A stretch of DNA of 64,000 nucleotides from Porpolomopsis calyptriformis (lineage: Eukaryota > Basidiomycota > Agaricomycetes > Agaricales > Hygrophoraceae): assembly GCA_951640195.1 (NCBI GenBank), contig OX621166.1:372001-436000 (forward strand), given 5' to 3'. The position numbers and the translations under genes are program-made. Shown piece after piece: positions 403-54,070 of this stretch. The stretch's first letter is position 1. Each line of letters starts with the position of its first letter. Under the pieces are notes generated by a model, which worked only from the letters and a program-made list of their open reading frames with translations, was not told where the DNA came from and did no database searches.

Positions 403-613
403 TGTCACAACTGTAGTTGCAAGTCTTTTCGTTGATCACAAGGCAGGCTTTGGAGCTTAATAAGTCTAAGAGGATATAGAAAAAGGTTCTGATAGGAATG
501 TCTTCGTAAAGGGTGATGATTCCTTCTGTATTAAGTTTGACTTCTACAAAGAAGTTCTGTTGTGGGTTAAATCCATTATGTGCCTCTGCTGAGAGTTTAG
601 GGAATATAGGTAT
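403..613 (-). pseudogene. Sense LTR-encoded ORF ('ORF0'), copy A, start codon lost
   Basis: This minus-strand frame corresponds to the LTR-borne ORF that begins MPIFPKLSAE in copies B, C and D. Here the start codon is ATA (611-613) instead of ATG. The frame is otherwise open to the LTR edge and then runs into flanking DNA as an accidental fusion. In the complete element the same ORF reads from the 5' LTR into the internal region towards gag. The function is unknown. Confidence 0.6.
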
Positions 614-756
614 GAACAGTTGGTTCGGTGATAGTGGTTTTATGTTTCTCTTTTCTTGTTCTGATAGAAAAGAAGTCCGATGATTCTGATTGCATTCGTG
701 CTACTACAAGTAATCTCACAGGAGGACGAAGTGATGATCCGCTTTGCCCTCAGGGT

Positions 757-763
757 TTATATA
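757..763 (-). promoter_or_regulatory. Sense TATA box of LTR A
   Basis: TATATAA on the minus strand, about 28 bp upstream of the sequence ATCACTTCGTCC, which I take as the start of R. The motif is conserved in LTRs B, C and D and would drive the retroelement RNA leftwards. Confidence 0.6.
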
Positions 764-1064
764 GTATTTCTAAAATAGGAGTCATTATGAGTCAGCCTCT
801 ACAGTCACCCCATTTTCTATTGTTCACAGCCTCCAGTTTAAGGTTTGCTATTGTTCCTAGTCATACTGCGGAAGGCTGTGTGCTTCTGATGACTCAATTC
901 TATTAGGCATAGCCTTCTGCAGCATTGGGCTGTGTTGTCTCATGACTGGTTTCTATTGTTCTTTGGTCATGAGATCGCCATTGTTTCTATCTCTTGTCCA
1001 GCGTATCAGGTTTCTCTTCTTTGACTGAGGAACCTCCTTTTGGTCCTCCCTTTGTTCATAGATG

Positions 1065-1071
1065 TATAAAA
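1065..1071 (+). promoter_or_regulatory. Antisense TATA box of LTR A
   Basis: TATAAAA lies 49 bp upstream of the ATG of the antisense gene. The surrounding GTATAAAAGGTGTGG block is kept in copies B and D, and as TATATAAAAGG-type sequence in C. It lies about 300 bp from the sense TATA and points the other way. Confidence 0.6.
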
Positions 1072-1119
1072 GGTGTGGAGTTGTATCCCTATACTTCAGT
1101 TCAATCCTTGTCAATCATT

Positions 1120-1955
1120 ATGACTCCCTCCCACCAAGGCCACTACGTTCGATTCTTCAAGCAGTCTGGGGTAGTGCACTGCACTGCCCCTGTCTTCCTT
1201 GATTGTGACTCTTTCCATTACTACCTTCAGCGTATCCCTTCTGACGCCGACCTCTGTTGGTCTTCTTTCTCCTGTTTCGCTTGCAGTGGCAAGCACAAAG
1301 TCAAGAAGTGTCTGTTCATTCGCTGGCCAATCCAGCATGCTTGTAGCTTGATGGAGGATCCGCTTGGTGAGTATTTTGTTTTGTCTTTATTAGTCTGTGT
1401 TTGTTGATAATAGGCTTTCCCTTTCTTAGCTTGGGATAATAACCCCCCTCCCCCTACTTCCCAGCTCCCTTTGGAGAAGCGAGTTGATTGGAGTTCTGAT
1501 CATTGGGGGTATCCCTTCCCCTTTGATGATGCTAAGCCTGGGGACTTGGCTACAAGCCCCCCTTTCCGTCCTTGGACCCCTGGTCCATTAAGTCCTTTAT
1601 CTAGTGGTAATACTCTAAACTCTCTCACCCTCTTCGTAATTGTTAATCCTTTATCTTTTTAGTTGAAGATTTGTCCTTGTCGTCAACCAATGTTAACGTC
1701 AAGATTGAGGAAGAAGAAGAAGTTCCTCCCAGTTTGTTGTGGAGTCCCACTAATGATTGGTTGGGTGAGGAAGCGAGAAAGATAGCAATGGGTTTCGTCA
1801 AAGGGAAGGCTGCTGAGTTGCAGGCCTCTGGTGGTGACACTAATGGGGCCATCTATTGGGGTAATAAGTTGGCTACATTAGATGGTCAGGTGGTTTCTAG
1901 TTTCATAGAGTTCTTGAGGGACAGTATGGTGCAGGAGATTACCAAGACGGACTAG
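1120..1955 (+). CDS. Antisense U3 gene, copy A: 238-aa zinc-knuckle-like protein, three exons
   Basis: Exons are 1120-1366 (247 nt), 1430-1606 (177 nt) and 1663-1955 (293 nt), giving 239 codons with stop and no internal stop. Intron 1 (63 nt) is GTGAGT...TTCTTAG and intron 2 (56 nt) is GTAATA...TTTTTAG with a TTAAT branch-like site. Exon 1 is Cys-rich and contains CFACSGKHKVKKC, a CX2CX3HX4C arrangement close to the retroviral CX2CX4HX4C knuckle. Exon 2 is Pro-rich (PPFRPWTPGPLS). Exon 3 has an acidic run, then a helical segment (GEEARKIAMGF...). The gene lies entirely within U3 of an LTR, opposite to gag-pol, with its own TATA and AATAAA. I do not recognise the family; nucleic-acid binding is inferred only from the knuckle-like motif. 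Confidence 0.8.
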
Positions 1956-2012
1956 TTTTAGGTAGTTAGTTGGACATGGACCCCCTTTCTTGTACACATA
2001 GTCTCTGCTGCC

Positions 2013-2018
2013 AAATAA
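2013..2018 (+). terminator. Poly(A) signal AATAAA of antisense gene A
   Basis: AATAAA lies 57 nt after the stop codon of the antisense gene, within the conserved string AATAAAGACAGCCCC found in every copy of this LTR in the window (C on the other strand). Confidence 0.55.
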
Positions 2019-2104
2019 AGACAGCCCCCTTTCCAAAGAGAACAGGCACAGAAAAGAGAGGAAAAGAACAGAATTTTAAGAGAGTGAATACCAATTTCAT
2101 GACA

Positions 2105-3312
2105 AGACTCATCATTGGATGAGATACGAGATGGGGGACATCGGCAGGGATGACCGTCTAGGAACCAGGTGTCATTTCCATCATGAAGTGACGATGGAAT
2201 GCCATTCCTTGCCAATGTATTATGCACAGACTCTCTGTACATCTCGAGGGAGGATAAGTCCGAGACATTACCCTGGAGGGTGTCCTTGAGCCATTGAAAG
2301 GCATAGACAAAGGCGTCATCTGCCTGTTCAAATGTCATGCCTTGTCCGGTGAAGAATGGAATGAGGGATTGTTCTGTGACATTGGATGACCCAGAGTACT
2401 GGGCTGGTTCTCTGGGGGGTTCCGCAATGGACAGGTTCAATCCCATCACAAGTGAGTGATAGTGGCCAGGCATTCCAAACAGGAGGGCTGCCGCTCTGAT
2501 GTATTGTGACCGTATCTGGTCGGCGTCTGTCAATGATCCGGTGGGAGCACAGGTCTTAGGCGACTTTGGTTTGTGTCAACTAACCAAAAGCATCCCACAG
2601 AGGCTTTGCAGCGAAATGCTGCCATCTCATTCTAAGTGCACTCCAGGGTGCGCGGCATGGCAGTTTATGTAGAACCAATGAGCCCACTCTTCCAGGGAGC
2701 TTGAGGCAGTTGGCTGAGACAGGTTAATCCGTCCAGGCACAGAAGAAGTCAGCACCTGTACAGGTGCATTGGTGGAATTACCTGAAGCCCAGGTGGGAAC
2801 TCTCCAATTGATTAATGCAATGCGTTGAGCATCTGTTCTACTCTCTTGAGGAGTCGCCTGCGCTGTCGTGATGAACGATCGCGCAAGTTCAAGAGCCTCA
2901 TTGTTGCCTGATGCTTAGGCTTGAATGAACAGAGCGTGCCATTGGCGCGCATTGATGGGGTATCCGCGGTCATCCACAGATTGAGTTCCATGGGGAGGGG
3001 GCAATCCCATCACTTCATTTCATTGTGCTGCTTCAGCGCTTGCGCCAACCCAGATGGTCTGGTCAATGGGTGAGTAATGGGCCCCAGCAGGGATGCTGGG
3101 CCAAGCAGTAATGGTTGAGCGCTTCTTGCACTTTTTGATCATCTCGCCACTAGGGCCAGATTGATTATTCACTCCTGGATCTGGGAGGTTTGGGAACTTG
3201 ACATATGAGGTGGGTTGAAGGCGAGCCTTCAGTTCCTCATTCTCTCAAATGATTTGAGGAAAGCATCTCTTGATGTACGCATTATCCTCCTTGTCGAGGT
3301 CTTCGAACATCA
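2105..3312 (-). pseudogene. Unrecognised gene relic, proximal part
   Basis: The minus strand encodes protein-like stretches such as SPIDQTIWVGASAEAAQ, VDDRGYPINARQWHALF and ADQIRSQYIRAAALLFG, interrupted by several in-frame stops, many consistent with TGG to TAG or CAG to TAG changes. It continues into 95-402 when LTR A is removed. On the right it is cut by LTR B, and its N-terminal part does not reappear on the far side of element II. I do not recognise the family. Confidence 0.45.
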
Positions 3313-3523
3313 TGTCACAACTGTAGTTGCAAGTCTTTTTGCTGATCACAAGGCAGGCTTTGGAGCTTAATAAGTCTAAGAGGATATAGAAAAAGGTTCT
3401 GACAGGAACGTCGTTGTAAAGGGTGATGATTCCTTCTGTGTTAAGTTTAACTTCTACAAAGAAATTCTGTTGTGGGTTAAATCCGTTACATGCCTCTGCT
3501 GAGAGTTTAGGGAATATAGGCAT
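3313..3523 (-). pseudogene. Sense LTR-encoded ORF0, copy B (3' LTR)
   Basis: ATG at 3521-3523 starts MPIFPKLSAEACNGFN..., open for 70 codons to the LTR end at ...TCNYSCD, then running by chance into the flanking gene relic. Because this is the 3' LTR, the ORF has lost its downstream partner. Confidence 0.55.
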
Positions 3524-4831
3524 GAACAGTTGGTTCGGTGATAGTGGTCTTATGTTTCTCTTTTCTTGTTCTGATGGAAAAGAAGTCTGATGATTCTGAT
3601 TGCATTCGTGCTACTACAAGTAATCTCACAGGAGGACGAAGTGATGATCCGCTTCACCCTCAGGGTTTATATAGTATTTCTAAAATAGGAGTCATTATGA
3701 GTCAGCCTCTGCAGTCACCCCATTTTCTATTGTTCACAGCCTCCAGTTTAAGGTTTGCCATTGTTCCTAGTCATACTGCGGAAGGCTGTGTGCTTCTGTT
3801 GACTCATTTCTATTGGGCACTGCCTTCTGCAGCATTGGGCTGTGTTGTCTCATGACTGGTTCCTATTGTTCTTCTAGTTATGAGATTGCTGTTGTTTCTA
3901 TCTCTTGTCCGCGTATCGGGTTTCTCTTCTTTGACTGAGGAACCTCTTTTTGGTCCTCCCTTTGTTTGTAGACATATAAAAGATGTGGAGTTGTATCCCT
4001 ATGCTTCAGTTCAATCTTCATTAATCATCATGACTCCCTCTCACCAAGGCTACTACGTTTGATTCTTCAAGCAGTCTGGGGTAGTGCACTGCACTGCCCC
4101 TGTCTTCCTTGATTGCAACTCCTTCCATTACTACCTTCAGTGTATCCCTTCTGATGCTGACCTCTGTTGGTCTTCTTTCTCCTGTTTCGCTTGTGGTGGC
4201 AAGCACAAAGTCAAGAAGTGTCCGTTCGTTTGCTAGCCAATCCAGCATGCTTGTGGCTTGATGGAGGATCCGCTTGGTGAGTATTTTGTTTTGTCTTTAT
4301 TAGTCTGTGTTTGTTGATAATAGGCTTTCCCTTTCTTAGCTTGGGACGATGACCCCCCTCCCCCTACTTCCCAGCTCCCTTTGGAGGAGCGAGTTGATTG
4401 AAGTTCCGATCATTAGGGGTATCCCCTCCCCTTTGATGATGCTAAGCCTGAGGACTTGGCTACCAGCCCCCCTTTCTGTCCTTGGACCCCTGGTCCATTA
4501 AGTCCTTTATCTAGTGGTAATGCTCTAAACTCTCTCGCCCTCTTCATAATCATTAATCCTTTATCTTTTTAGTTGAAGATTTGTCCTTGTTGTCGACCAA
4601 TGTTAACATCAAGATTGAGGAAGAAGAAGTTCCTCCTAGTTTGTTGTGGAGTCCCACTAATAATTGGTTGGGTGAGTGTCATGAAATTGGCATTCACTCT
4701 CTTAAAATTCCTCTCTTTTCTTCGATCTTTTCTTTTCTTTGCCTGTTCTCTTTGGAAGGGGGGCTGTCTTTATTGGCAGCGGAAACTATTTGTACAAAGA
4801 GGGGGAGTCCATGTCCGACTAACTATCTAAA

Positions 4832-5667
4832 CTAGTCCATCTTGGCAATCTCTTGCACCATACTGTCCCTCAAGAACTCTACGAAACTCGAGACTACTTG
4901 ACCATCTAATGCGGCCAACTTATTACCCCAGTAAATTGCCCCATTGGTGTCACCACCGGAGGCCTGCAACTCGGCAGCCTTCCCTTCGATGAAACCCATC
5001 GCTATCTTTCTCGCTTCCTCACCCAACCAATCGTTGGTGGGACTCCACAACAAACTGGGAGGAACTTCTTCCTCCTCGATCTTGACGTTGATGTTAGTCA
5101 ATGACAATGACAAATCTTCAACTAAAAAAGGCAAAGAAATCAGCAACTACAAAGAGACCGAGAGAGTTGAGAGCATTACCACTAGACAAAACACTCAATG
5201 GACCAGGGGTCCAAGGGCGGAAAGGGGGACTGGCAGCCCAGTCAACTGCCTCCTTCTTGACGGAAGGAAGAGAGTCAGCCCACTTGTCGGACCCCCAATT
5301 AACCTGCTCCTCCAAAGGGAGCTGGGAAGTAGGGGGAGGGGCGTCGTCATCCCAAGCTAAAAAGAAGGAAAGCCTATTAGCAACAAACATAGACTAACAA
5401 AGACAAAACAAGACACATACCAAGCGGATCCTCCATCAAGCCACAAACATGCTGGATTGGCCAGCGAACATACGGACACTTTCTGACCTTATGCTTGCCA
5501 CCGCAAGCAAAACAAGAGAAGGAGGACCAGCAGAGGTCGGCGTCGGAGGGGGTGCGCTGAAGGTAGTAGTGGAAAGAATCGCAATCGAGAAAGACAGGAG
5601 TGGTGCGGTGCACCACTCCAGACTGCTTGAAGAATCGGACGTAGTGGCCTTGGTGGGAAGGAGTCAT
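4832..5667 (-). CDS. Antisense U3 gene, copy C: intact 237-aa protein, three exons
   Basis: Exons on the minus strand: 5667-5421 (247 nt), 5356-5180 (177 nt) and 5121-4832 (290 nt), 238 codons with stop and no interruption. Intron 1 is GTATGT...TTTTTAG (64 nt) and intron 2 is GTAATGC...CTGAT...TTTTTTAG (58 nt). Exon 1 keeps CFACGGKHKVRKC (CX2CX3HX4C). Compared with copy A the 290-nt third exon lacks one Glu codon of the acidic run, an in-frame change. Exon 2 differs from A at many residues but stays open. A TATA (TTTTATA on plus, 5717-5723) lies 50 bp upstream and AATAAA (TTTATT on plus, 4769-4774) follows the stop by about 60 nt. Function unknown. Confidence 0.82.
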
Positions 5668-6023
5668 GATGATTGACAAGGATTGAACTGAAGTGTAGGG
5701 ATACAACCCCACACCTTTTATATGCTCAGACACAAAGGGAAGACCAAAAGGAGGTTCCTCAGTCAAAGAAGAGAAACCCGCTATGCTGGGCAAGAGATAG
5801 AAACAATGGCGATCTCATAACCAGAAGAACAATAGAAATCAGTCATGAGATAACACAGCCTCAACCTGCGGAAGGCTATGCCCTATAGAATTGAGTCATC
5901 AGAAGCACACAGCCTTCTGCAGGATGACTAGGAACAATGGCAAACCTTAATCGGAGGCTGTGAACAATAGAAAATGGGGTGACTGTGGAGGCTGACTCAT
6001 AATGACTCCTACTTTAGAAATAC

Positions 6024-6030
6024 TATATAA
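6024..6030 (+). promoter_or_regulatory. Sense TATA box of LTR C
   Basis: TATATAA, 28 bp upstream of ATCACTTCGTCCTCC (6052-6066), the presumed start of R and the segment that pairs with the primer-binding site of the complete element. The sense ORF starts about 110 nt further on at 6174. Confidence 0.6.
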
Positions 6031-6173
6031 ACCCTGAGGGCGAAGTGGATCATCACTTCGTCCTCCTGTGAGATTACTTGTAGTAGCACGAACGCAATCA
6101 GAATCATCAGACTTCTTTTCCATCAGAACAAGGAAAGAGAAACATAAACCCATAACTACTGAGCCAATCGTTC

Positions 6174-6384
6174 ATGCCCATATTCCCTAAACTCTCAGCA
6201 GAGGCACGCAACGGATTTAACTCGCAGAACAACTTCTTTGTAGAAGTAAAACTTAACTCAGGAGGAATCATCACCCTTTACGAGGACGTCCCCATCAGGA
6301 CTTTCTTCTACATCCTACTAGACTTATTAAGCTCCAAGGCCTGCCTTGTGATTGACAAAAAGACTTGCAACTACAGTTGTGACA
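6174..6384 (+). CDS. Sense LTR-encoded ORF0, copy C
   Basis: ATG at 6174 starts MPIFPKLSAEARNGFN; the frame is open to the end of the LTR. It shares the segment VEVKL..GGIITLYEDVP and LLDLLSSKACLVI with copies B and D. By chance it continues in frame beyond the LTR into the remainder of exon 3 of antisense gene B and stops at 6575, giving a 133-codon fusion of the two LTR-encoded proteins. In a complete element the frame would enter the internal region towards gag. No known domain is recognised. Confidence 0.55.
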
Positions 6385-6722
6385 GTGAGGAAGCGAGAAA
6401 GATAGTGATGGGTTTCATCGAAGGGAAGGCTGCCAAGTTGCAGGCCTCCAGTGGTGACACTAATGGGGCAATCTATTGGGGTAATAAGTTGGCCGCTTTA
6501 GATGGTCAAGTAGTTTCTAGTTTCGTAGAGTTCTTAAGGGACAGTATGGTACAGGAGATTGCCAAGACGGACTAGTTTAGGTTTTTTAGTTAGACATGGA
6601 CCCTCCTTCTTGTACATATAGTCTCTGCTGCCAATAAAGACAGCCCCCCTTCAAAAGGAACAGGCAGAGAAAAGAGAGGAAAAGAATGGAATTTTAAGAG
6701 AGTGAACGCTAATTTCATGACA

Positions 6723-6739
6723 TTACCCCCCTCCTAGAG
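6723..6739 (-). other. Polypurine tract of family II element
   Basis: Minus strand CTCTAGGAGGGGGGTAA abuts the first base of 3' LTR B. It fixes the gag-pol direction as minus and identifies B as the 3' LTR. Confidence 0.75.
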
Positions 6740-8038
6740 TCCACTGGAGCTATGTGAGGATGGACCCAAAGCTCTTCTCCTCACAAACTTGAAGTCAGGA
6801 TGCTTGTCATGAAATTCTAAGATCCTTCCCGCCGCATTTTCCAGGTTCTTCTCTGGTTCCTAGGAATTTTCTGAGATTGAATACCCTTTCCATTGTACCA
6901 AATATTGCTTTTGGTTGCGCCAGAGTCTCCCATCCAAAATCTGGTCCACTTCATACTCTTCCTCCCCTTCAATCTCTATTCCTCCAGGCTCCTCCAATCT
7001 CCTTCCTTCTATCTCCGAGTCCACATAGGTGCTGAGCAGATTTTCATGAAAAACTGGATGTATCCGATACTTCTCTGGTAATTCCAGTTTGTAGACTTGG
7101 TTCGAAAGTTTCTTTTCTATCACAAAGGGTCCCAACCTTTTATCCGCTAGTTTCTTGCTGGGAGCAGTAGTGTGGATGTTTGTTGCATCCAACCAGACCT
7201 TATCTCCAACTTCCCTACATCCTTCTTCCTTCCCATGATCATAGTAATTCTTCATTGTCTCTTGGGCTAGTCTTATTGATGCTTTGATTTCTTCCTGAAC
7301 CCTCTTGATCTTGTCAGTCAAATCTTGGGCTCTGGGTACTTCCAATTTTCCAGCCTGAGGAATTGCCATTCTTGGATGGTACCCCCTTGCAGTGTAGAAT
7401 GGAGTCCTTTTCGTCAACATGTTTTCATTATTGTTATGGGCAAACTCTGCTATTGGTAAGAACTTGGCCCAGTTGTTTTGTCGATAATTGCAGAAGGTCC
7501 TGAGGTATTGTTCTAGTTCTTGGTTAACGCATTCAGTTTGTCCATCCATCTGAGGGTGGTACGCTGTTGAATAGGCTCCTTCAATTCCTAGTTTCTTGAA
7601 AATTCCCCTCATCAGTTTTGATGTGAATTGTGTTCCGCAATCAGAAATCATCTTCTCAGGGACCCCATGCAATTTCCAGATATGATTCATATACAGCTTT
7701 ATTGTCTCCTCTGTATCCACCTCAGTGGTGGTTGGTATAAAATGGGCCTCCTTTGTTAACTGGTCTACTATGACCCAGATAGCGTCGTAGCCTTCTGACT
7801 TCGGCAGTTCCATAATGAAGTCATTTGTTACTGTCTCCCATGGTCTTTCTGATGGCGGTATTGGCATCAATTTTCCTTTGGTTTTCTGGTAGGATCTTTT
7901 CTTCCGGTTACAGGTATCACAGGTTTTCACATAATGTTTGACATAAATCGTGATCCCGGGCCACCAGTAGTTTCGGGTGAGCAGTTCTAGTGTGTGGTAC
8001 TCCCCTTGATGTCCCCCTTCCAGGGTATCATGGTGCAA
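6740..8038 (-). pseudogene. Family II integrase and chromodomain (end of pol)
   Basis: A long open stretch from 8038 down to 6860 carries the integrase zinc-binding HHCC region (HHDTLEGGHQGEYH...CDTCNRKK), the catalytic core (FIMELPKSEGYDAIWVIVD, ISDCGTQFTS, YHPQMDGQTECVNQELEQ) and the C-terminal part (YRIHPVFHENLLSTYV). It ends in a chromodomain (EEEYEVDQILDGR...YLVQWKGYSISENS) and continues after one stop (TAG where Trp is expected) almost to the polypurine tract. A chromodomain fused to integrase defines chromoviruses and is known to direct insertion towards marked chromatin. This is the best-preserved part of this pol. Confidence 0.85.
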
Positions 8039-9060
8039 CTGTACCAGGTCCCTCCTTATTTCTTCATCTTTTGGGACATAGACTTTTCCTTTGAAGAGGA
8101 TTAGACCATCCTCTGTGTTCTAATCCTCTAATCCTTTTCTAAGTTTTCTTAGTGTTCCTCCCTTAACTATTTTCAAGGCTTCTTCAATTTCAGAGTCGAA
8201 AGCTTCGGAGGCTCGAATTCTTTGTAGTATTAGGTGGTCTTTGACTGTTGTCATATGTCCTCGAAACAGGGCCTTGATTTTGAAGACTTTAGGTTTTAAT
8301 AATGTCTGTCCCTGATTTTCTTCTCCTTCTATCTGATAGTCTGCTTGTCTAGATAATTTGTCTGGTTTTCCCCCAGTCTTCCAGGTCGATGTTTGATTAT
8401 ATAATCAAATCTGGTTAGGAATAAACTCCATCTTGCCTGTCATCTAGTCAGGGTTTTTGCTGAGGCAAAGTACTGTAGATTTTGGTGATCTGATAAGATA
8501 GTTACTTGGTGTCTTGCCCCTTCTAGATAATGTCTCCATTCTTTGAGTGACGCTATTATGGCTAATAGTTCTTTGTCATATATTTTGTAGTTTCTTTCTG
8601 CTTCATTCATTCCTCTGGAGTAGAAGGCTATTAGATGTATCTTTCCATCTTTTCCATATTGTGAGATAACAGATCCAATAGCATAATCCGAGGCATCACA
8701 TTCTAAAATGTATGGTTCTTCTGGGTTTGCCATTGCCAAGATGGGTGCAGTAGTGAATTTCTTTTTTAGGAGCTGAAAGGCTTGCTCCTGTCTCTCCCCC
8801 CATTCCCATTTTCTTCCTTTTCATAGTAGTTCCGTAATTAGTCTCACTGTTTTAGAGAATTCAGGGATAAATCATCTATAGAAGTTTGCAAAGCCTAAGA
8901 AAGATTACACTTCTTTTACCTTTCATGGTGTCGGCCAATCAATTACAGCCTTGACCTTTCCTGGATCCATCTCAATCTTCTCCTGGCTGATAAGGTGCCC
9001 TAAATATTCCACAGAATCCTTGAAGAAGTAGCATTTCTCTGGTTTGAGGAACAGGTCATT
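8039..9060 (-). pseudogene. Family II RNase H and RT thumb region, decayed
   Basis: The open segment 8739-8440 gives ILECDASDYAIGSVISQYG, YDKELLAIIASLKEWRHYLE and VTILSDHQNLQYF, the gypsy RNase H. Upstream, 8760-9060 still reads CYFFKDSVEYLGHLIS and SFLGFANFYR with stops where Gln, Arg or Trp are expected. The stretch 8039-8440, linking RNase H to integrase, is full of stops and frame changes. Confidence 0.75.
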
Positions 9061-9948
9061 CTCTCTTGACCTTTTGAGTATTTCTCAAATATGTCCCAGC
9101 TGTTCCTCCTCATCTTTAGAGTATATTAGGATGTCATCAATGTATATTTCAACATATTTTCCAATTAAGTCATGAAAAATGGTGTTCATCATTCGTTGAA
9201 AGGTTGCTGGAGCATTTGTTAATCCAAACCACATTACCTGTGGTTCGAAGAGTCCTTCTTTTGTATTGAAGGCAGCTTTCCATTCATCTCCTTCCTTTAT
9301 TCGAATGTTGTTATATCCCCATCGCACATCCAATGTAGTAAAGACTTTTGCACTAGCTAGATTGTCAAGCAATCTCTGCATTAGTGGCAGCAGGTATTGA
9401 TCTTTTATAGTTGCATTATTTAGTCCTCAATAGTCCACTATAAGTCTTAACATCCCATCTTTTTTCTTGATAAAGAAGACTGGTGAAGCAACGTGAGATC
9501 TGGACTCAACTATGTACCCCTTTTTTAGATTTTCTGCAATAAATTCTTTTAGTGCTTCAGCTTCTATTGGTGCCATTGTATAGGGGTGTTTATTCAGTAG
9601 TGGCTTTTCAGGTATAAGGTTAATTGGATGATCATATGCCTTCCTGAGTGGTAGTCTTTCCGATGCCTTTTTGTCGAACACATCTCTATAGTCGTGTAGA
9701 GGTTTTGGTACTAGTTCTTCAAAGGTTTTATCTCCTTCCTTGATAGTTGTCAGTTCAGCTACTTTCTGAGATATAGTAAAGCCTGCTGCTATTCGCCTGT
9801 CTAGTCCTTTCTTTGGAGTTAGGATCTGATCTCCTTCTTCAGGTTGGTATTCTCCTAGTACATTCCATTCACGTATCCAGGTGTTATCTAAGTCTGGACT
9901 CCAGTATTCCATTTCTGTTTCATCCATCCTAATTTTCTGGATTTTCAT
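9061..9948 (-). pseudogene. Family II reverse transcriptase, decayed
   Basis: Frames 9948-9427 and 9381-9085 are one RT broken by a stop. Motifs: [49 protein letters not shown] and the catalytic YIDD (about 9133-9144). The upstream part (KPLHDYRDVFDKKASERLP, YTMAPIEAEALKEFI) is the usual pre-RT linker of Ty3/gypsy pol. Confidence 0.85.
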
Positions 9949-10377
9949 CTTCTTTCTATCTTTCTGTTTCTTGGTTTGACAAAAACTTGGGCACCGGCTA
10001 AAGGTAATCTTCTCTGTTTCCCAATTGATTTCTGGGTTGTGTCACTTTAACCAGTCTATTCCAATGATAAAGTCATCCTCCCCTATTCCTGCTATAAGGA
10101 AATCTTCTTTTGTCCTGTGTCCTCCTAAGTCCAGATTGAGCTGGACCTTTTGGGTGATCCTTCCCATTCAGTTCATTGTTTGGTCAACATTCATAATCTT
10201 GATGGGCTTTCTTAGTGGTATAGTTTTCAGCTTCTGGGTTTTCACCACTTTTGGTGAGATAAAGAGTGAGGATGCTCCGCAATCAATAAGGGCTTTAGTT
10301 GTCCATTCATTCTTTCCTTCATGAAGGTTTACATGAGTATAAATCTGTCCTTCATTAGGGTTGGGGCTAATGTACAT
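9949..10377 (-). pseudogene. Family II aspartic protease region
   Basis: Minus frame 10377-10168 contains KALIDCGASSLFISPKVV, an aspartic protease active site with D-C-G-A in place of the usual D-S/T-G-A. Stops follow before the RT frame. It lies between the gag zinc knuckle and RT, as expected for Ty3/gypsy. Confidence 0.65.
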
Positions 10378-11356
10378 AGTTGAATCTTTGTCCTTTAAGT
10401 CCTTATTTGGTCGGGCTAAAGAAATTGCAGAGTCTTTCTTCAGCCTTGAGCAAAATCCTCTTCTCCCCCTTCATTCCCTTCTTCGTTGACTTTCTTTGCT
10501 TGGATATTTCCAAATTTCTTTCTAGGACAAGCCCTGGCCATGTGACCTGCTTGCCTACAGAAGAAGCATCATCCCTCTTTCATCAGGTTTTTTCATTCTT
10601 CCTCTGTCAGTTGAGCGACTTTGATGGCTACATTTTTTCGGTAGTTTCCAGTTGGCTCTACTCTTCTTTTTTCCTTGGCCCTTATCAATATTCTTCCTTC
10701 AATGGTTAAGGCCACCTGCAATAACTCTTGCAAAGTTCCAGGCCTCTCAATAGTAACCATGATATCTCTGATTTGATCTTTGAATCCCTGATAAAATATC
10801 TCAGCTAGGGTCTCTTCTCCATAATCACATTGGAGTACCTTTTCAAGGAATTTAGCATAGTAATCTGTGATCAATTTTTCCTGATTAATGGTCCTCCAGG
10901 TGGTGGTGCAAATGGATTTAATGCTGGAGTTTTCTTTGGACTTTCTTCAGGTGGTTCCTCTCTTCCTTTCTCTTTTGGTTCCTTGGTCAGTGTTTCCATT
11001 CCTGAGTGGGCAATCGGAATCTTCAGTCCCCATCCAGTGAGCCCTGTTTTCTCTGTTGGTTTCATGGGTACTGGGTCTAGTAATCCAACTCGACTCAAGT
11101 AGGTCATGCTCTCCCTTCCTATTCCCCTTCCTCTGCTACTTAATGCCCTGCTCGCTTCAGGTTCTCCTCCCGCCTTCCTCTTCAGTTTCCTCCCTAATGT
11201 TCCCAGAGTGGTGAATAGTCCTTTCTCCTTTTCTGTCTCGTCATCCCCTTCATCTTCAGGTTCATCTGCTGTTCGAGAGAAACTGGTAGTGGACCCCCAG
11301 AATGCAGTTTCAGGTGTCTCTTTGCTCAGTTCACTCTTGGAGCTTGCAGGAGTCAC
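10378..11356 (-). pseudogene. Family II Gag with zinc knuckle
   Basis: The 11356-10871 frame is a hydrophilic segment with ESPKKTPALNPFAPPPGG; the 10874-10593 frame looks like the end of capsid (YYAKFLEKVLQCDYGEETL, YQGFKDQIRDIM). Near 10525-10566 the minus strand encodes CFFCRQAGHMARAC, a canonical CX2CX4HX4C knuckle, in another frame. Gag is therefore broken by frameshifts. Confidence 0.7.
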
Positions 11357-11834
11357 TGGGTCCTCTATTCCTACTTGGTAACTGAGCGCAGTTACAGTAG
11401 TATCTCTCGGATCCTGGTATGGTTAACTCATAATTAGGGTCTTCATATATATCTATCTGTATTCTGATTGGTTTATTTGCAAGCTTATGGAAGGCCAAAT
11501 AGTTTACGCTTCCTTTGGTTGCTGAGAAGAACAGTGTTTCTCGTCTAAGGAGATGGTATCGATCGTCATCCAATATTAAGCAAGATAACCAGTCTGCAGT
11601 GTGATTCCAACACTTCATCCTAATGTCACAACTGTAGTTGCAAGTCTTTTCATTGATCACAAGGCAGGCCTTGGAGCTTAATAAGTCTAAGAGGATATAG
11701 AAAAAGGTTCTGACAGGAACATCTTTGTAAAGGATAATGATTCCTTCTGTGTTAAGTTTGACTTCTACAAAGAAGTTCTGTTGTGGGTTAAATCCGTTAC
11801 GTGCCTCTGCTGAGAGTTTAGGGAATATAGGCAT
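11331..11834 (-). CDS. ORF0: 167-aa ORF starting in the 5' LTR and entering the internal region
   Basis: ATG at 11832-11834 lies in LTR D; codons 1-70 are LTR sequence, the boundary is crossed at 11624, and the frame continues (DWLSCLILDDDRYHLL, GSVNYLAFHKLANKPIRIQI) until 11331. It overlaps the gag frame (ending 10871) by 26 nt in a +1 relation, so it may be the true N-terminus of Gag separated by one indel or a programmed shift. A gag frame that starts inside the LTR has a known precedent in Ty1. No domain is recognised. Confidence 0.6.
   Translation of the reverse strand: MPIFPKLSAEARNGFNPQQNFFVEVKLNTEGIIILYKDVPVRTFFYILLDLLSSKACLVINEKTCNYSCDIRMKCWNHTADWLSCLILDDDRYHLLRRETLFFSATKGSVNYLAFHKLANKPIRIQIDIYEDPNYELTIPGSERYYCNCAQLPSRNRGPSDSCKLQE
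11611..11623 (-). other. Primer-binding site of family II, complementary to its own R
   Basis: Directly after the LTR end TGTGACA the minus strand reads TTAGGATGAAGTG. It has no TGG start of a tRNA site. Eleven bases, AGGATGAAGTG, can pair with CACTTCGTCCT in R, 28 bp after the sense TATA, with one G-U pair. This is the arrangement of Tf1-type self-priming. Confidence 0.5.
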
Positions 11835-12519
11835 GAACAGTTGGTTCGGTGATAGTGGTTTTATGTTTCTCTTTTCTTGTTCTGATGGAAAAGAAGTCCG
11901 ATGATTCTGATTGCGTTCATGCTACTACAAGTAATCTCACAGGAGGACGAAGTGATGATCCGCTTTGCCCTCAGGGTTTATATAGTATTTCTAAAATAGG
12001 AGTCATTATGAGTCAGCCTCCGCAGTTACCCCATTTTCTATTGTTCACAGCCTCCAGTTTAAGGTTTGCTATTGTTCCTAGTCATACTGTGGAAGGCTGT
12101 GTGCTTCTGATGACTCAATTCTATTGGGCATAGCCTTCTGCAGCATTGGGCTGTGTTATCTCATGACTGGTTTCTATTGTTCTTTGGTCATGAGATCGCC
12201 ATTGTTTCTATCTCTTGTCCAGCGTATCAGGTTTCTCTTCTTTGACTGAGGAACCTCCTTTTGGTCCTCCCTTTGTTCGTAGATATATAAAAGGTGTGGA
12301 GTTGTATCCCTATGCTTCAGTTCAATCCTTGTCAATCATCATGACACCCTCCCACCAAGGCCACTACGTTCGATTCTTCAAGCAGTCTGGGGTAGTGCAC
12401 TGCACTGCCCCTGTCTTCCTTGATTGCAACTCTTTCCATTACTACCTTCAGCATATCCCTTCTGACGCCAACCTCTGTTGATCTTCTTTCTCCTGTTTCG
12501 CTTGTGGTGGCAAGCACAA

Positions 12520-12613
12520 TATTAGATAAGGATTCATTTAAAACGACACCTAAACTTGTTAATAATAATCCACCGGATCATTTTATTAAACTAAAGAAAA
12601 CAACTCTAAAACT
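12520..12613. other. 94-nt AT-rich block of unknown origin replacing 3 nt in LTR D
   Basis: LTRs A, B and C read AAGCACAAAGTCAAGAAGTG here; D has 94 nt in place of AGT. The block is A+T-rich, lacks GT-AG ends and shows no inverted repeats or duplication. It may be filler DNA from break repair, for example of organelle origin; I cannot assign it. Confidence 0.5.
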
Positions 12614-12990
12614 CAAGAAGTGTCCATTCGTTCGCTGGCCAATCCAGCATGCTTGTGGCTTGATGGAGGATCCGCTTGGTGAGTATTTTGTTTTGTCTTT
12701 ATTAGTCTGTGTTTGTTGATAATAGGCTTTCCCTTTCTTAGCTTGGGATGATGACCCCCCTCCCCCTACTTCCCAGCTCCCTTTGGAGGAGCGAGTTGAT
12801 TGGAGTTCTGATCATTGGGGGTATCCCCTTCCCTTTGATGATGCTAAGCCTGAGGACTTGGCTACCAGCCCCCCTTTCCATCCTTAGACCCCTGGTCCAT
12901 TAAGTCCTTTATCTAGTAGTAATGCTCTAAACTCTCTCGCCCTCTTCGTAATTGTTAATCCTTTATCTTTTTAGTTGAAGATTTGTCCTT

Positions 12991-13958
12991 TGTCATGATC
13001 CCAAACTGATTTGGTATCAAACTTAACCAAAGATCATGTATTCAGCAAGTAGCATCCATAGCTCAAATACCCTTTATCTTATCTTATCTTATCTTATCTT
13101 AGATAAGATATCACTGTCCCTCACATATTATCTTATCTCAGATAAGATACACTACTATCTTTACCTATGCTATCTTATCATGGACAATAGCATTCTTCCC
13201 CATTGTTCTCTGAGTCACTATGACTCATATTAATCTCCTCCATTGTTCTCCTCATTGTCTGACTCATGGTGAGTCACAATTCAAACTCCTCATTGTTCTT
13301 TTATCCATTGTTCTTATTTCCTATTGTTCTCATTGCCCATTGTTCTCAAACATATAAAAAGGGCCCCCTTTTCACCAGTGAGGAGTTCAGTTCAGTTCAA
13401 GTTCATTTTCCCCCCCACTTTTACCCCACTCCCTCCCCTCAGTCTATCCTCCCCCTTTTCCTTGAACTTACCCCTAGTACTACCTCTTATTGATACTACT
13501 TGTCTGTAGTCAATACATCCAATCCAGTCTAGTCTATTAAGCTTATATCCTGTGTGATTTCGCCTAAGCCCTCTTACGTTAAGAACTAACTTAGGAATCA
13601 CCCCTTGACGTATTTCTGTAAGTTGAAGATAGCCACCGAGGACTATCTTATCTTACTTCAGCCCCTGCTTATTCATCACATTCTCTAAGTCTCAGTCCTT
13701 ATTGGAGAGACCTCACTGTGATACATATTCTTCTAAGTCAGCCGTTGACTTCATTCTTGTTCTCCCAGTCAATACTATCCATTGAGCTTGGATAGCCTGC
13801 TCATCTGTACATCCCAGCCAAGGATTACTCAAGCCCCATCAAAGGAGGAAGTGTCCATTACTCAATCAATTCACATCTCCCCTGAACAACTAGGACTTAC
13901 TTGATTAACGTACAACTCCAGTAGTTCTAGAAGTGAAGTATTTATATTTCACCTGATA
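12991..13958 (+). repeat. Solo LTR of gypsy family I (968 bp)
   Basis: TGTCATGATCCC...CACCTGATA, flanked by CCTT at 12987-12990 and 13959-13962. It matches the ~1.04-kb LTRs at 36180, 44192, 54071 and 58646 in the opposite orientation, including the GATAA run, ACAAT and TGACTCA/TGAGTCA motifs and TATA box. It lies in exon 3 of antisense gene D. Confidence 0.9.
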
Positions 13959-14385
13959 CCTTGTCATCAACCAATGTTAATGTCAAGATTGAGGAAGAAG
14001 AAGTTCCTCCCAGTTTGTTGTGGAGTCCCACTAATGATTGGTTGGGTGAGGAAGCGAGAAAGATAGCAATGGGTTTCGTCGAAGGGAAGGCTGCTGCGTT
14101 GCAGGCCTCCAGTGGTGACACTAATGGGGCAATCTATTGGGGTAATAAGTTGGCCGCATTAGATGGTCAAGTAGTTTCTAGTTTCGTAGAGTTCTTGAGG
14201 GACAGTATGGTGCAGGAGATTGCCAAGATGGACTAGTTTTAGGTAGTTAGTCAGACCTGGACCCCCTTTCTTGTACACATAGTCTCTGCTACCAAATAAA
14301 GACAGCCCCCCTTCCAAAGAGAACAGGCACAGAAAAGAGAGGAAAAGAACAGAATTTTAAGAGAGTGAACGCCAATTTCATGACA

Positions 14386-28606: not shown

Positions 28607-29944
28607 ATGACAAAGTGATGATCTGCTTTGCCCTTAGGGTTTATATAGTATTTCTAATCCTCTTTCCTATTATTCACAGCCTTCTGAATAAGGTTTGCCA
28701 TTGTTCCTAGTTATACTGCAGAATGCTATGTTATTCTAATGACTCAATTCTATTAACCATAGCCTTCTATAGTCTAGATGTGTAGTCTTATGACTTATTC
28801 CTTATTATCCTCTGAGTTATGAGATTACTGCTGTTTCTATATCTTGCTCAGCATATTAGGTTTCCCTTCTTCTACTGAGAAGGCTCCTATTAGGGTTCCC
28901 TTTGTATTCTCCAGTATAAAAGGAGTAGGGATTGTATAATTCTTACTCTAGTTCAGTCCTTATCAATCATCATAACTCCCTCCCACTAAGGCTACTACAT
29001 TTGGTTCTTCAAGTAGTCTGGGGTTGTGTACTGCACTGCCCCTGTCTTTCTTGATTGCAATTCATTCCATTACTATCTCCAATGTATCCCCTCCGATGCT
29101 AATCTCTGCTGGTTGTTCTTCTCCTGTTTCGCTTGCAGTGGTAAGCACAAAGTTAAGAAGTGTCCATTTGTTTACTGGCCAATCTAGCATGCCTGTAGTC
29201 TGATGAAGGATCCGCTTGGTGAGTATCTTGTTTTGTCTTTATTAGTCTTTTTTTGTTGATAATAGGCTTCCCCCTCTTTTTAGCCTGGGATGATAACACC
29301 CCTCCCCCTACTTCCTAGCTCCCTTTGGAGGAGAAAGTTGATTGGAGGTCCAATTGTTTGGGAAACCCTCTCCCTTTCTCTGATCCCAAGCCTGAGAACT
29401 AGGCTTCCAGTCCCCCCTTCCATCCTTAGACCCCAGGTCCTTTGAGTTCTTTATCTAGTAGTAAGCATCTCTGCTTTCTTGCTCTCTTTGTAGTTACTCA
29501 TTCCTGCTTCTTGAAGACTTGTTGGTATTGTTGACTAATGTCAACATCATGATTGAGGAGGAAGAGATTCCACCTAGTTTATTGTGGAGTCCCACCAATA
29601 ACTGGTTGGATCAGGAGGCAAGAAAGATAGCAATGAGTTTTGTAGAGGGAAAGGCTGCAGAATTGCAGGCCTCTGGTGGGAACACCAATGGGGCAATCTA
29701 TTGGGGAAATAAGTTAGCTGCATTAGATGGTTAGGTAGTCTTGAGCTTCATAGAGTTCCTACAGGATAGTATAGTACAGGAGATAGCAAAGACAGATTAA
29801 CTTGGATAGTTAATTGGATATAGACTCTCCCTCCTTTGTATAAATAGTCTCTGCTGCCAATAAAGACAGCCCTTCATATAAAAGCAACAGCAAAAAAGAG
29901 GAAATGAATAGAATTTTAAGGGAGTGAATACCAATTTCATAACA
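28607..29944 (-). repeat. LTR 'E' of family II, diverged, lacking U5
   Basis: Similar over its length to LTR A from position 727 to 2104 but with many substitutions; the right end is TTTCATAACA. The U5 side (ORF0) is absent: similarity begins at GATGACAAAGTGATGATC, inside R. No duplication can be defined. Confidence 0.75.
28972..29800 (+). pseudogene. Antisense U3 gene, copy E, degenerate
   Basis: The ATG is ATA at 28972-28974. Exon 1 keeps the knuckle coding (CSGKHKVKKC) and the GTGAGT donor near 29219; exon 2 has stops at Gln and Trp codons; exon 3 is open from about 29519 (VNIMIEEEEIPPSLLWSP) with a stop near 29730 and ends at TAA 29798-29800. It is the most diverged copy yet still aligns over all three exons. 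Confidence 0.65.
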
Positions 29945-35374: not shown

Positions 35375-36179
35375 CCTAGCTCTGTTCTATTAATAATTTA
35401 TAGACTGAGGTACTTAAGGTCATTCAGAGTCTTCCCCACCTATCACATAGTCTAGGATACAAGGATAAGAGAGATATAGCTATTAAATTAATATATGTTC
35501 TTAGCTAAGTACTTAGTCAAATACCCTTATTGTTTGATAATAATCTATATAATATCCTTATAGGCCTAATAAACTTTTACCCTTTAACATGAAGTTGGTT
35601 TCAAGTAGAGTCCTTGCAATTAGCTATTGGATTAGTACTAAAAAACCTCCTTAGTATTTACCTAGATGTTTTAAAGCTAGGAAAATAGAATAGCACTCTA
35701 GAAGGTAAGGAGTTTGAGCTACTAATTAAACATTTACAAGAGATAGTAAAGAGCCTTAATTAGAACCCACTCTCTTATATCTTGTGTAGATAGTTAAGAG
35801 ATATGATTCTATAAGAAGTTTTCCTAATATTTTATAACATTTTTAACTTTAATATAGCTAAGGAAGTAAACTATCTATACTAACTACAACCCTCCTTTAC
35901 TAGTAGTATTGCTATAACTTGGCTAGCTAGGTAAGCCTTAGCTACAGCTAAAGAAGCTAGTTAGTTTTTGCCTAGCTATAGCTACAGCTAAAGCTAGCTA
36001 GCTAGTAGCTAAGCTAGATAACTTAGGTAGAGTAGCTTTTTACAATCTTACAAATGCTATCACTACATTAGTTAATATAATAGGGTGTATTAAGAAATAA
36101 GAAGGCCTAAGAGGTAGAAATATAGTATATAATCACAAATAAGCTCTGTGAAAATCTAAACTCCTGCAAACATGTCCGG
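35375..36179. other. AT-rich remnant beside the decayed LTR, with AGCTAGCT-rich segment
   Basis: Probably decayed internal sequence of the same element (possible gag-like string EFELLIKHLQEIVKSLN on plus near 35710), but too degraded to assign. Between 35918 and 36025 AGCTAGCTA, TAGCTACAGCTAAAG and similar strings recur, giving local inverted repeats. Confidence 0.4.
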
Positions 36180-37225
36180 TATCAGGTGAAATATAAATAC
36201 TTCACTTCTAGAACTACTGGAGTTGTACATTAATCAAGTAAGTCCTAGTTGTTCGGGGGAGATGTGAATTGATTGAGTAATGGACACTTCCTCCTTTGGT
36301 GGGGCTTGAGTAATCCTTGGCTAGGATGTACAGATGAACAGGCTATCCAAACTCAATGGATAGTATTGACTGGGAGAACAAGAATGAAGTCAACGGCTGA
36401 CTTAGAAGAATACGTATCACAGTGAAGTCTCTCCAATAAGGACTGAGACTTAGAGAATGTGATGAATAAGCAGGGGCTGAAGTAAGATAAGATAGTCCAC
36501 GATGGCTATCTTCAACTTATAGAAAATGTCAAGGGGTGATTCCTAAGTTGGTTCTTAACGTAAGAGGGCTTAGGCGAAATCACACAGGGTATAAGCTTAA
36601 TAGACTAGACTAGATTGGATGTATTGACTACAGACAAGTAGTATCAATAAGAGGTAGTACTAGGTACTGAGTACTAGGGGGTAAGTTCAAGGGAAAAGGG
36701 GGAGAGTGGGGGGGGAGGGATAAAGTGGGTTGAAAGTGAACTAAATGTGAACTTAATGTGAACTGAACTCCTCATTGGTGAAAAGGGGGCCCTTTATATA
36801 TGTTTGAGAACAATGGGCAATGAGAACAATAGGAAATAAGAACAATGGATAAAAGAACAATGAGGAGTTTGAATTGTAACTCACCATGAGTCAGACAATG
36901 AGGAGAACAATGGAGGGGATTAATATGAGTCATAGTGACTCAGAGAACAATGGAGTGATGACAGAACAATAGAGAAATGGGATATGAGTCATTCTGACTC
37001 AGAGAATAATGGGGGAGAATGCTATTGTCCATGATAAGATAGCATAGGTAAAGATAGTAGTGTATCTTATCTGAGATAAGATAATATGTGAGGGACAGTG
37101 ATATCTTATCTAAGATAAGATAAGATAAGATAAGATAAGATAAGGATGTGTGAGCTAAGGATGCTACTTGCTGAATACATGATCTTTGGTTAAGTTTGAT
37201 ACCAAATCAGTTTGGGATCATGACA
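36180..37225 (-). repeat. 3' LTR of I-1 (1046 bp)
   Basis: Minus strand TGTCATGATCCC...CACCTGATA. It contains the GATAA run (37105-37145), ACAAT motifs, three TGACTCA/TGAGTCA pairs, and TATATAAAGG near 36795. The GTGAACTTAAT repeat is present in about three units. Confidence 0.88.
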
Positions 37226-37409
37226 TCTGCAGGGGACAAAGAAATTACAACTGTCCTCAGTTGATTCTTGCACAATATAATACCTTTGACCCAGTAGTTT
37301 CTACATTACAAGGTCTCATATTCGACATAGCAAGGGAAAAGCTTTCCTAACCATCCATTCCAAGGTTTCTTCTTCTCCATCCTAGCATATTCCCGGTCGA
37401 CCACAAGCA

Positions 37410-37980
37410 AAATGTCAACATCTCCCAGCTCCAAGTGTGCCTCCAATACCCAATATGATTTCGCAACAATCCAAACACTGCTGACTACCGCTCGTCCCTG
37501 TCATTGGACTTGGTTACTTGGATATCGAAATTGGATAAGGGATCCCAATTGGATAGGACCACCTTGGATATGGCTAAGACGGAAAACAAATCCATCCCAG
37601 TTGAGGGACTGAAAACCACTTTGAAGTCATTGAGCGGTGGCAAGTATAGTGGGGGTAGAGGTATTTTGAGGTGGGGGATATGAGTGGTCTGGGAGGATTA
37701 GGCCAGTTCTTGGCCCAGGGATATATACGGGGGGTGGCTGTTCGATTTCGACCGAGGCGCGAAAAAGCCGAGATTCGCGAAGGAGGGTACGCATGGATGA
37801 GTTGGCGGTGTCCTCATAGTTAGATTCAGGGATAGACATGAGGGAAGTGGATGATTGCATTGTGACAAAAAAGAGTAAAGGCTGAGGGCAGTGTTGGATA
37901 GCGGTGAGTGCGATATCGTGGCTTGTGAACTGAACCCGGTTTATAGGCACGTGACTAGCCTGAGCTGAAATCTTAGTCAA
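37410..37980 (-). pseudogene. ORF-Y of element I-1, broken
   Basis: Counterpart of 45311-45871. ATG (MQSSTSLMSIPESNYED) is kept; the frame stops after TILATAQ at 37627 where I-2 has CGA (Arg), and again after NQVQ. The rest (SGFQSLNWDGFVFRLS, SVWIVAKSYWVLEA) is readable. Function unknown. Confidence 0.6.
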
Positions 37981-38162
37981 TCCTTTAACGATTCTGTCGC
38001 TTGTAGAGGGTTTACATATTTAATTATTTACCCAATGTCTCTCCTATTTACAGGGATTACTCCTAATAAGAGATTCTTTCTGTGACATTGTGGTAAAAAG
38101 AGTAAAAAGGACTATACAAAAATAAAACAAAGAATTGGTGGCGCGTGTATGAGGAACAAATA

Positions 38163-38684
38163 CTACTCCCTATCTAAGGGTTCTTCCTCCATGGGGCCAT
38201 TGGCACCAATGAGAGATGAAGGAGGGATAATGACATTGGGGGGAAGGGGGGGAATAGATGGGATGAACGCGCTTTGCCCATATGCTGTTACATACCTAGA
38301 CTCCCAGTATGTAGCTTGATCCATCCAATACTCAATCATTTCCACCCTTAAATGTAGCGCTAGCTCCTGCCCTACAAGTTTGCTGTTGAGCTCAAAGAGC
38401 TCGCTCTCGAGCTTCCGAAGGTACACGTCTTGCTGATGTCGATCCCTAAGTAGGGTCGCGATGATTTCGTCCTTTGACGGATTAGCCGGTGCCTCATCCA
38501 TTGCAGGCATGAGGGTATAAAGGGGTTGGTGGGGGTTATGGCAATCGTAGGCAGTGAGAGGTGGGGGCAGCAGTACGTGTGTCGTAGGTGGGGGGAGGTT
38601 GCTAGATGTGGCTTGGTTGTTCGGGTTTGCCTGGTCCCAGTTGAACCATTGGCGTTGTGCTTCAGTGGAATAGGGTGTCGACAT
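38163..38684 (-). CDS. ORF-X of element I-1: 173-aa coiled-coil accessory protein
   Basis: ATG at 38684, open to 38163, 147 nt after the end of pol. N-terminus rich in Pro and Asn (NWDQANPNNQ, LPPPTTHVLLPPPL), then a coiled coil (YLRKLESELFELNSKL) followed by MIEYWMDQATYWESRY and a Pro-rich end (PPLPPNVIIPPSSLIG). Only a handful of residues differ from the I-2 copy. It shares plan and motif (W-x3-QA-x-YWE, then a Pro-rich IIPPSS tail) with ORF3 of family III. Role unknown; open in two copies although pol is broken. Confidence 0.65.
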   Translation of the reverse strand: MSTPYSTEAQRQWFNWDQANPNNQATSSNLPPPTTHVLLPPPLTAYDCHNPHQPLYTLMPAMDEAPANPSKDEIIATLLRDRHQQDVYLRKLESELFELNSKLVGQELALHLRVEMIEYWMDQATYWESRYVTAYGQSAFIPSIPPLPPNVIIPPSSLIGANGPMEEEPLDRE

Positions 38685-38831
38685 GATGAGCAGTTTGATT
38701 TCGAGTGGAGGGGAGGGACTTTGCAGCAGGAGGTAGCTTGTTGTCGTCTAGATTGAAGGAAAGTAATAAGCAAGTGTGGGGGCATGCAGTTTACATCAGG
38801 TGGCTAGATCTGATCGACGATTAAGTCTTGA

Positions 38832-45234: not shown

Positions 45235-45310
45235 TCTGCAGGGGACAAAGAAATCACAACTGTCCTCAGTTGATTCTTGTATATACAATGTCTATCGACC
45301 TAGTAATCCT

Positions 45311-45871: not shown

Positions 45872-46174
45872 TGTGACAAAAAGGGTAAAGGCTGAGGGCA
45901 GTGTTGGATAGCGGTGAGTGCGATATCGTGGCTTTGTGAACTGAACCCGGTTTATAGGCACGTGACTAGCCTGAGCTGAAATCTTAGTCGATCTTTTAAC
46001 GATTCTGTCGCTTGTAGAGGGTTTACATATTTAATTATTTACCCAATGTCTCTCCTATTTACAGGGATTACTCCTAATAAGAGATTCTTTCTGTGACATT
46101 GTGGTAAAAAAGAGTAAAAAGGACTATACAAAAATAAAACAAAGAATTGGTGGCGCGTGTATGAGGAAGGACTA

Positions 46175-46696: not shown

Positions 46697-46844
46697 GATG
46701 AGCGGTTTGATTTCGAGTGGAGGGGAGGGACTTTGCAGCAGGAGGTAGCTTGTCGTCGTCTAGATCGAAGGAAAGTAATAAGCGAGTGTGGGGGCATGCA
46801 GTTTACATCAGGTGGCTAGATCTGATCGACGATTTAAGTCTTGA

Positions 46845-47635: not shown

Positions 47636-47809
47636 GTATATACATTGGTAAAGTAGAAGGGTAAACGGATAAGAGACTAATCATGTCTGACTAAAAAGAA
47701 AAAGAAAAATACATCCATGACATACACCCACACTAAAAGGAAATTTATCCTGAAATTCGAGATGGCATTTGAGAGAGTTGATAGGTGCAGAAGAGGGGAA
47801 GGACTAGGA

Positions 47810-54065: not shown

Positions 54066-54070
54066 AATTA

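Follow-up and report, generated by a model that had tools for sequence, protein, structure and literature searches.

Long terminal repeats (LTRs) of retroelements are usually viewed as non-coding control regions, and repeat masking drops them from gene finding. Coding within the U3 part of an LTR is known, lentiviral nef being a comparable case and sag of mouse mammary tumor virus another, the latter not known to form a separate antisense unit with introns of its own. Here, we analyzed a window of 64 kb (the whole stretch of DNA studied, positions 372001-436000 of its contig) from the 33.5-Mb, 17-contig genome of the basidiomycete Porpolomopsis calyptriformis, in which LTRs of a chromodomain-bearing Ty3/Gypsy retrotransposon contain a predicted three-exon gene in antisense orientation to gag-pol. 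The sag gene lies mostly in U3 and is for this reason retained by solo LTRs; its lineages are under purifying selection, with 0.289 in a one-ratio test, and 0 of 25 orthologous bat LTRs differed from a ratio of nonsynonymous to synonymous substitution rates (dN/dS) of 1 (PMC4667437). The antisense gene resembles sag in its coding within U3, its survival in solo LTRs and a selection that apparently acts in the lineage and not after integration. Going by the published description, sag is read in sense from promoters outside and inside U3, whereas the gene at this locus is antisense; of the features of a sag-type gene it has the coding in U3, given the sense start proposed below, and not the sense orientation.

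Antisense accessory open reading frames (ORFs) have been described as gene23 of Grande, in RIRE2, Retand and PvRetro13, and as brtn of Boty from Botrytis (PMC7264820, PMC11963269; brtn is also named in PMC8365987). They are present in most copies and have no assigned function, and that of Grande has its own promoter; neither PMC7264820 nor PMC11963269 uses the word 'intron' in its main text. All of them are internal, between pol and the 3' LTR, whereas the gene described here is inside the LTR. Set against the definition of an aORF-3R, it is antisense to gag-pol and conserved in most copies, and it is not located internally. ORFs of the Grande type should occur once per element and be lost in solo LTRs.

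In human T-cell leukemia viruses (HTLV), hbz runs into internal sequence. LTR promoters drive HBZ and APH of HTLV and ASP of HIV-1; a spliced form of hbz exists, and the RNA for ASP extends from U3 as far as env (PMC10186651). A further antisense gene, HAP, was claimed in 2006 in U3-R of the HIV-1 LTR, with no introns described in the abstract (PMC1654176). HBZ, ASP and HAP are antisense products of an LTR, as is the gene here; ASP leaves the LTR, whereas this gene stays within U3. One paper on a fungal LTR with subfamilies that differ in U3 does not use the word antisense (PMC10787394). Coding in U3 and antisense accessory genes are known already, and a complete intron-bearing antisense gene within a retrotransposon U3 was not found among the top 7 to 25 titles and abstract openings that each search of open-access papers listed. 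The sequence-only reading of the window had presented a self-contained gene in every LTR as a new kind of retroelement cargo; the gene stands, but the newness was put too strongly given sag in solo LTRs (PMC4667437) and the HAP claim (PMC1654176).

In the window, the gene is complete in two solo LTRs, A and C, where it lies opposite to gag-pol and entirely inside the LTR, within U3 given the presumed sense start:

403-2104, gag-pol sense on the - strand: LTR A, solo, 1702 bp, found by self-alignment, with ends TGTCA...TGACA and target site duplication (TSD) AGACT
~2104-734: U3 of LTR A
~733-403: R and U5 of LTR A
1065-1070, + strand: TATA box (TATAAA) of antisense gene A
1120-1366, + strand: exon 1 of gene A, 247 nt, bearing the motif CX2CX3HX4C
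1430-1606, + strand: exon 2 of gene A, 177 nt, proline-rich
1663-1955, + strand: exon 3 of gene A, 293 nt including the stop
2014-2019, + strand: AATAAA of gene A
4677-6384, gag-pol sense on the + strand: LTR C, solo, 1708 bp, sitting within LTR B, with TSD GTGAG, delimited by alignments
5421-5667, - strand: exon 1 of gene C, 247 nt
5180-5356, - strand: exon 2 of gene C, 177 nt
4832-5121, - strand: exon 3 of gene C, 290 nt including the stop
4769-4774, - strand: AATAAA of gene C

The predicted introns measure 63 and 56 nt in A and 64 and 58 nt in C, all of them GT-AG, and the spliced frames are free of stops over 238 (A) and 237 (C) codons. This bears out the structure put forward in the sequence-only reading, whose exon lengths hold and whose start codon of A at 1119 has to be moved to 1120. 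At the antisense TATA stretch, TATAAAA is kept in 11 of the 12 commonest variants listed. The same reading had taken the copies in LTRs B, D and E as decayed, which they are: in B, codon 11 is a stop and LTR C divides exon 3, D is interrupted by insertions, and E has lost the ATG and gained several stops, yet retains exons of exactly 247, 177 and 290 nt.

Searching the whole genome gave at least 331 matches with the protein and at least 45 with the DNA. The comparison covers 79 LTRs: the DNA search supplied 39, and the other 40 come from among 97 additional places listed with the protein. L025, L040 and L041 (partial or overlapping) were left out before alignment, and L042-L049 as duplicates of other loci; omission of L038 and L085, in which exon 3 is truncated, leaves 77 copies with all exons. 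The spliced frame is intact in 33 of these 77, a count to be read with the fact that a protein match favors open copies and is the source of 40 of the 79 LTRs; in the DNA-search rows alone, 12 of 39 are open. An ATG start is present in 72 of the 77 copies and all four GT/AG sites are kept in 75. Exon 1 is 247 nt long and exon 2 either 177 or 174 nt in every copy; exon 3 measures 290, 287, 293 or 284 nt in 73 and is out of frame in the other four, so that frame-breaking lengths are not frequent. Introns range from 61 to 65 and from 53 to 58 nt.

A perfect 5-bp TSD with no adjoining primer binding site (PBS) or polypurine tract (PPT) marks 46 of the 79 LTRs as solo, and 24 of these 46 have open frames. 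PBS or PPT adjoins 7 LTRs, and 26 have neither by the same test. Because the gene is entirely inside U3, each element carries two copies and each solo LTR one, as had been proposed from the window. At least four pairs among the 79 LTRs are duplicates of single insertions. The same flanks are found on different contigs or at distant places for L004/L005, L006/L007/L059 (L059 judged by eye), L010/L011, L014/L018 and L070/L075; these groups are segmental duplications, useful as clocks. Separately, L042, L044, L045 and L046 (G000:C8:1553988-1554509 and others) each give one stop-free match across exon 2, intron 2 and exon 3, and unspliced intron 2 might also be translated there.

Substitutions were placed on a tree of 73 copies, which leaves out L038, L039, L056, L064, L071 and L085. 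On internal branches, changes at codon positions 1, 2 and 3 number 130, 105 and 448, at 238 sites each; on terminal branches they number 339, 184 and 547. At sites that are CpG in no copy, the internal rates are 0.39, 0.23 and 1.45 per site with 1.20 in introns, and the terminal rates 0.55, 0.29 and 1.48 with 0.83 in introns. Where dS exceeds 0.1 (484 open-copy pairs), dN/dS (mean dN over mean dS) is 0.114-0.136, about 0.12, far below the 0.51-0.54 obtained in a neutral simulation with the observed mutation bias; it is 0.469 for the nine closest open-copy pairs and 0.260 for the next 35. Distinct insertions and deletions (indels) number 6 in 714 exon sites versus 75 in ~994 other sites, and those with a length divisible by three make up 3 of 6 in exons versus 7 of 75 elsewhere (Fisher P = 0.023). 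Taken together, these comparisons of copies show that frame and splice sites are conserved and that the encoded protein is under purifying selection in the replicating lineage. Between a whole element of the family, L050, and the element of the window, reverse transcriptase differs at 16, 12 and 87 and gag at 10, 25 and 54 sites of codon positions 1, 2 and 3, so that the constraint on the antisense gene is not far from that on gag-pol.

The same data bear on two readings that dispense with a protein. The frames might be a coincidence that follows from base composition or from constraint acting on the other strand, for which it speaks that further ORFs, of 60 to 145 codons, occur on both strands of LTRs A and C. 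However, the order of change in the 73 copies, position 2 below position 1 and both far below position 3, although scored in this frame, fits coding on this strand in this frame; intron rates are near that of position 3, and exon lengths are kept even in copy E. We regard coincidence as extremely improbable. Alternatively, the antisense transcript might work as RNA, in self-silencing or copy-number control by pairing with U3, the reading frame being incidental. Such a transcript and the U3 portion of the genomic RNA would have complementary sequences, and PMC7264820 discusses roles of this kind for antisense RNAs. This leaves unexplained why changes at position 3 exceed those at position 1 by a factor of 3.4 and those at position 2 by a factor of 4.3, and likewise the in-frame exon lengths, the dN/dS of about 0.12 and the conserved GT/AG sites. 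An RNA function in place of the protein is thus very improbable, and it may exist in addition to it.

After insertion, the pattern is different. In five same-insertion pairs with shared flanks and one pair of LTRs, differences at codon positions 1, 2 and 3 number 29, 16 and 18 (63 coding differences, pN/pS 0.58), which departs from the internal branches with a Fisher P of 1.6e-8. Tips in many parts of the tree carry premature stops, which recur at a few codons; open copies lie on both sides of the root, three of them (L001, L010 and L028) in the more diverged half. Inheritance of the stops at codons 72 and 100 was considered and rejected, their carriers being in separate parts of the tree; L008 and L017 may share theirs by descent. 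Changes from C to T at the tips are 5.4-fold enriched at CpG and stand at 0.89 at CpA, so the decay looks like CpG decay; repeat-induced point mutation of the Neurospora type was considered and set aside for lack of enrichment at CpA. Since codon bias is strong in the lineage and absent within insertions, selection appears to have acted on the replicating element, and inserted copies, as far as these few data go, appear to drift. A different reading is a gene captured and retained for the benefit of the host and still working in solo LTRs. Open frames in 24 of the 46 solo LTRs with perfect TSDs and some codon bias on terminal branches speak for it, but the same-insertion copies show no such bias and premature stops recur at tips; young solo LTRs need no selection to be open, because in simulation ~62% of copies remain so at 1.4% neutral change. 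Host benefit is accordingly very unlikely, and the idea that the cargo outlives its element as a working gene, also part of the sequence-only reading, is not supported, codon bias being absent after insertion in these few data and the stops being scattered.

The antisense protein has 236-238 aa. Its exon 1 part contains a motif CX2CX3HX4C (C52, C55, H59 and C64), with the cysteines present in 22 of 22 and H59 in 21 of 22 aligned copies, together with additional conserved Cys and His. The part encoded by exon 2 is variable and proline-rich, and the exon 3 part is conserved and perhaps helical; low-confidence models hint at strands and a helix in exon 1 and two long helices in exon 3. A CCHC zinc knuckle follows the pattern CX2CX4HX4C, from which the motif departs by one residue between the second Cys and the His. 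Because gag has a canonical zinc knuckle of its own, the antisense protein is no stand-in for an absent one.

The gag-pol ORFs of L050 were typed with Pfam, and the internal region of the window matches them. L050 has the TSD ATCTA and two 1708-bp LTRs with 24 differences. Pfam matches cover gag, protease, reverse transcriptase, RNase H, an integrase zinc domain, a Tf2-1-like SH3 domain and a chromodomain; the order protease, reverse transcriptase, RNase H, integrase with chromodomain is that of chromoviruses (Ty3/Gypsy), pol being broken into several ORFs. The LTRs have TG...CA ends and 5-bp TSDs, and pairs of them flank gag-pol with PBS and PPT. By its domains, the element is a chromodomain Ty3/Gypsy retrotransposon. 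Downstream of the 5' LTR, L050 reads TTAGGACGAAGTG, the last 11 bases of which complement CACTTCGTCCT, a sequence present in the LTR. The complementarity to the L050 PBS spans 11 nt; L084 and LTR D of the window differ at one place, readable as a G-U pair. Covariation of PBS and transcript start in L084 was considered and dropped, as R is unchanged there and pairs by G-U. The sense features are:

756-761: sense TATA of LTR A, with CACTTCGTCCT ~28-30 nt downstream
723-733, - strand: CACTTCGTCCT, presumed 5' end of the sense transcript of LTR A
11331-11834, - strand: sense ORF of 167 aa, from R/U5 of LTR D through the LTR end and the PBS

A sense start at ~733 in A implies a U3 of ~1370 bp that holds the whole antisense gene. 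Tf1 has short LTRs that are not known to hold such a gene. In elements of the Tf1/Tj1 type, the PBS is complementary to the 5' end of their own mRNA (PMC4600332). The element described here shares with them the chromodomain and the Tf2-1-like SH3 domain and, given the presumed mRNA start, the PBS layout, and is probably self-priming in the manner of Tf1. In the window, the sense ORF reaches across the position at which gag of L050 begins; the corresponding ORF of L050 (1698-1973) has 91 aa. In the 73 copies, its LTR part has internal changes of 0.39, 0.14 and 1.56 per site at the three codon positions, a strong codon bias; no Pfam family matches the sense ORF.

We consider it likely, judging from the sequence comparisons, that this chromodomain Gypsy LTR has divergent U3 promoters and that its three-exon antisense mRNA encodes a selected accessory protein. 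U3 would serve as a divergent promoter region, with one TATA for the sense RNA (gag-pol and the small R/U5 sense ORF) and a second, ~300 bp from the first, driving a separate three-exon antisense mRNA for a protein of ~237 aa. The host would splice this mRNA at sites recognized here by their conservation, and reverse transcription would leave the introns in place, since the genomic RNA has the sense of gag-pol and the same stretches are not introns in that direction. The protein would assist the element as an accessory factor and come from young copies that CpG decay and silencing have not yet reached. Most speculatively, its conserved Cys and His could let it act on nucleic acid or inside the nucleus, tuning sense transcription or replication as HBZ does for HTLV-1. 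Such regulation is the role we prefer, tentatively and at less than even confidence, on the model of HBZ and of what has been proposed for plant antisense ORFs. A different arrangement would have a protein needed for transposition supplied mostly in trans, the antisense position merely serving to carry introns and a second gene. Many open copies exist that could do so, but purifying selection continued in the lineage, and because of it an active element must apparently bring its own working copy; predominant supply in trans seems unlikely to us.

Several observations weigh against an accessory protein under selection. The many open copies could provide it in trans, and selection ought then to be relaxed unless they are silent or the protein is cis-acting. 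Transcript, splicing and protein are predicted here from sequence. The number of open copies (33/77) is not by itself clearly above neutral simulation: starting from an open ancestor and with substitutions only, 30% of copies are open after 4.2% change and 5% after 8.4%, while open copies differ by 8.8% on average, which with a star-like ancestor puts each of them ~4.4% away from it. As proof against chance, the open share was dropped, and the case for coding beyond chance rests on codon-position bias, dN/dS and indels. As to the fate of insertions, 34 of the 63 differences stem from one pair, L006/L007, the other five pairs contributing 16, 6 and 7, and codon bias persists on terminal branches, also at non-CpG sites. 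This terminal bias may reflect time spent in the lineage before insertion, combined with a protein search that preferentially recovers open copies, from which weak selection after insertion stays inseparable.

The protein itself adds further points of this kind. It matches no Pfam family, and neither phmmer with the 237-aa protein (362 candidates scored) nor hmmsearch with a six-sequence alignment (at least 7993 candidates) returned a homologue at E <= 10 from a set of 5.8 billion proteins. AlphaFold models gave no reliable fold, with a mean pLDDT (predicted local distance difference test) of 46.7 for exon 1 and 50.1 for exon 3. The absence of homologues says little, because a control with gag of the element found at least one protein (5.2e-5) in the same set, which thus holds few relatives of such elements. 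Viral contigs gave no match by tblastn, and three PDB sequence matches at 0.04-0.087 were taken as chance. With no family, no database relative and no reliable fold, any biochemical role is a guess.

Slightly better than even, in our estimate, is the broader proposition that the LTR is a two-way gene pair around one promoter region, in which a complete spliced antisense accessory gene takes up most of U3 and a sense ORF starts in R/U5. The element would keep introns by virtue of the antisense orientation, carry a working copy of its own wherever it inserts and leave dispensable copies in solo LTRs. Such a gene would belong to a class so far undescribed among retroelements. One strand of the LTR would then encode a conserved protein from an apparently spliced message, and the other strand the beginning of a second protein. 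Antisense placement would be a way for a retroelement to retain introns, and long fungal LTRs appear worth screening for genes. A further question is what makes an element need an antisense protein of its own when many copies of the gene are present.

The remaining parts of the family in the window, on the - strand throughout, are as follows:

3313-4676: LTR B, part 1 (3' LTR side of a decayed element), broken by LTR C
6385-6722: LTR B, part 2, adjoining the polypurine tract side (TTACCCCC)
6723-11623: internal region with gag-pol remains between LTRs B and D, from ORFs and matches to the gag-pol ORFs of L050, with a PBS-like sequence at the 11623 end and a PPT at the 6723 end
11624-14385: LTR D (5' LTR side of the B/D element), broken by other insertions
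28663-29944: partial LTR E, with 77-79% identity to A, B and C

LTRs B and D have no common TSD (flanks ACATCA and CTTCCCCT), so the B/D element may be rearranged. In gag, a stop after AQLTEEE occupies the same place in L050 (3376-3378) and in the element of the window (- strand), with the zinc knuckle in frame beyond it; this common stop could reflect readthrough or a shared defect. The gag copy of the window has a second stop ahead of the zinc knuckle. A second nested repeat family occupies 36174-39623, 44185-47636 and 50538-59713 of the window, with long ORFs (989 and 1686 aa) and repeats of ~1.04 kb, one pair of which is 100% identical.

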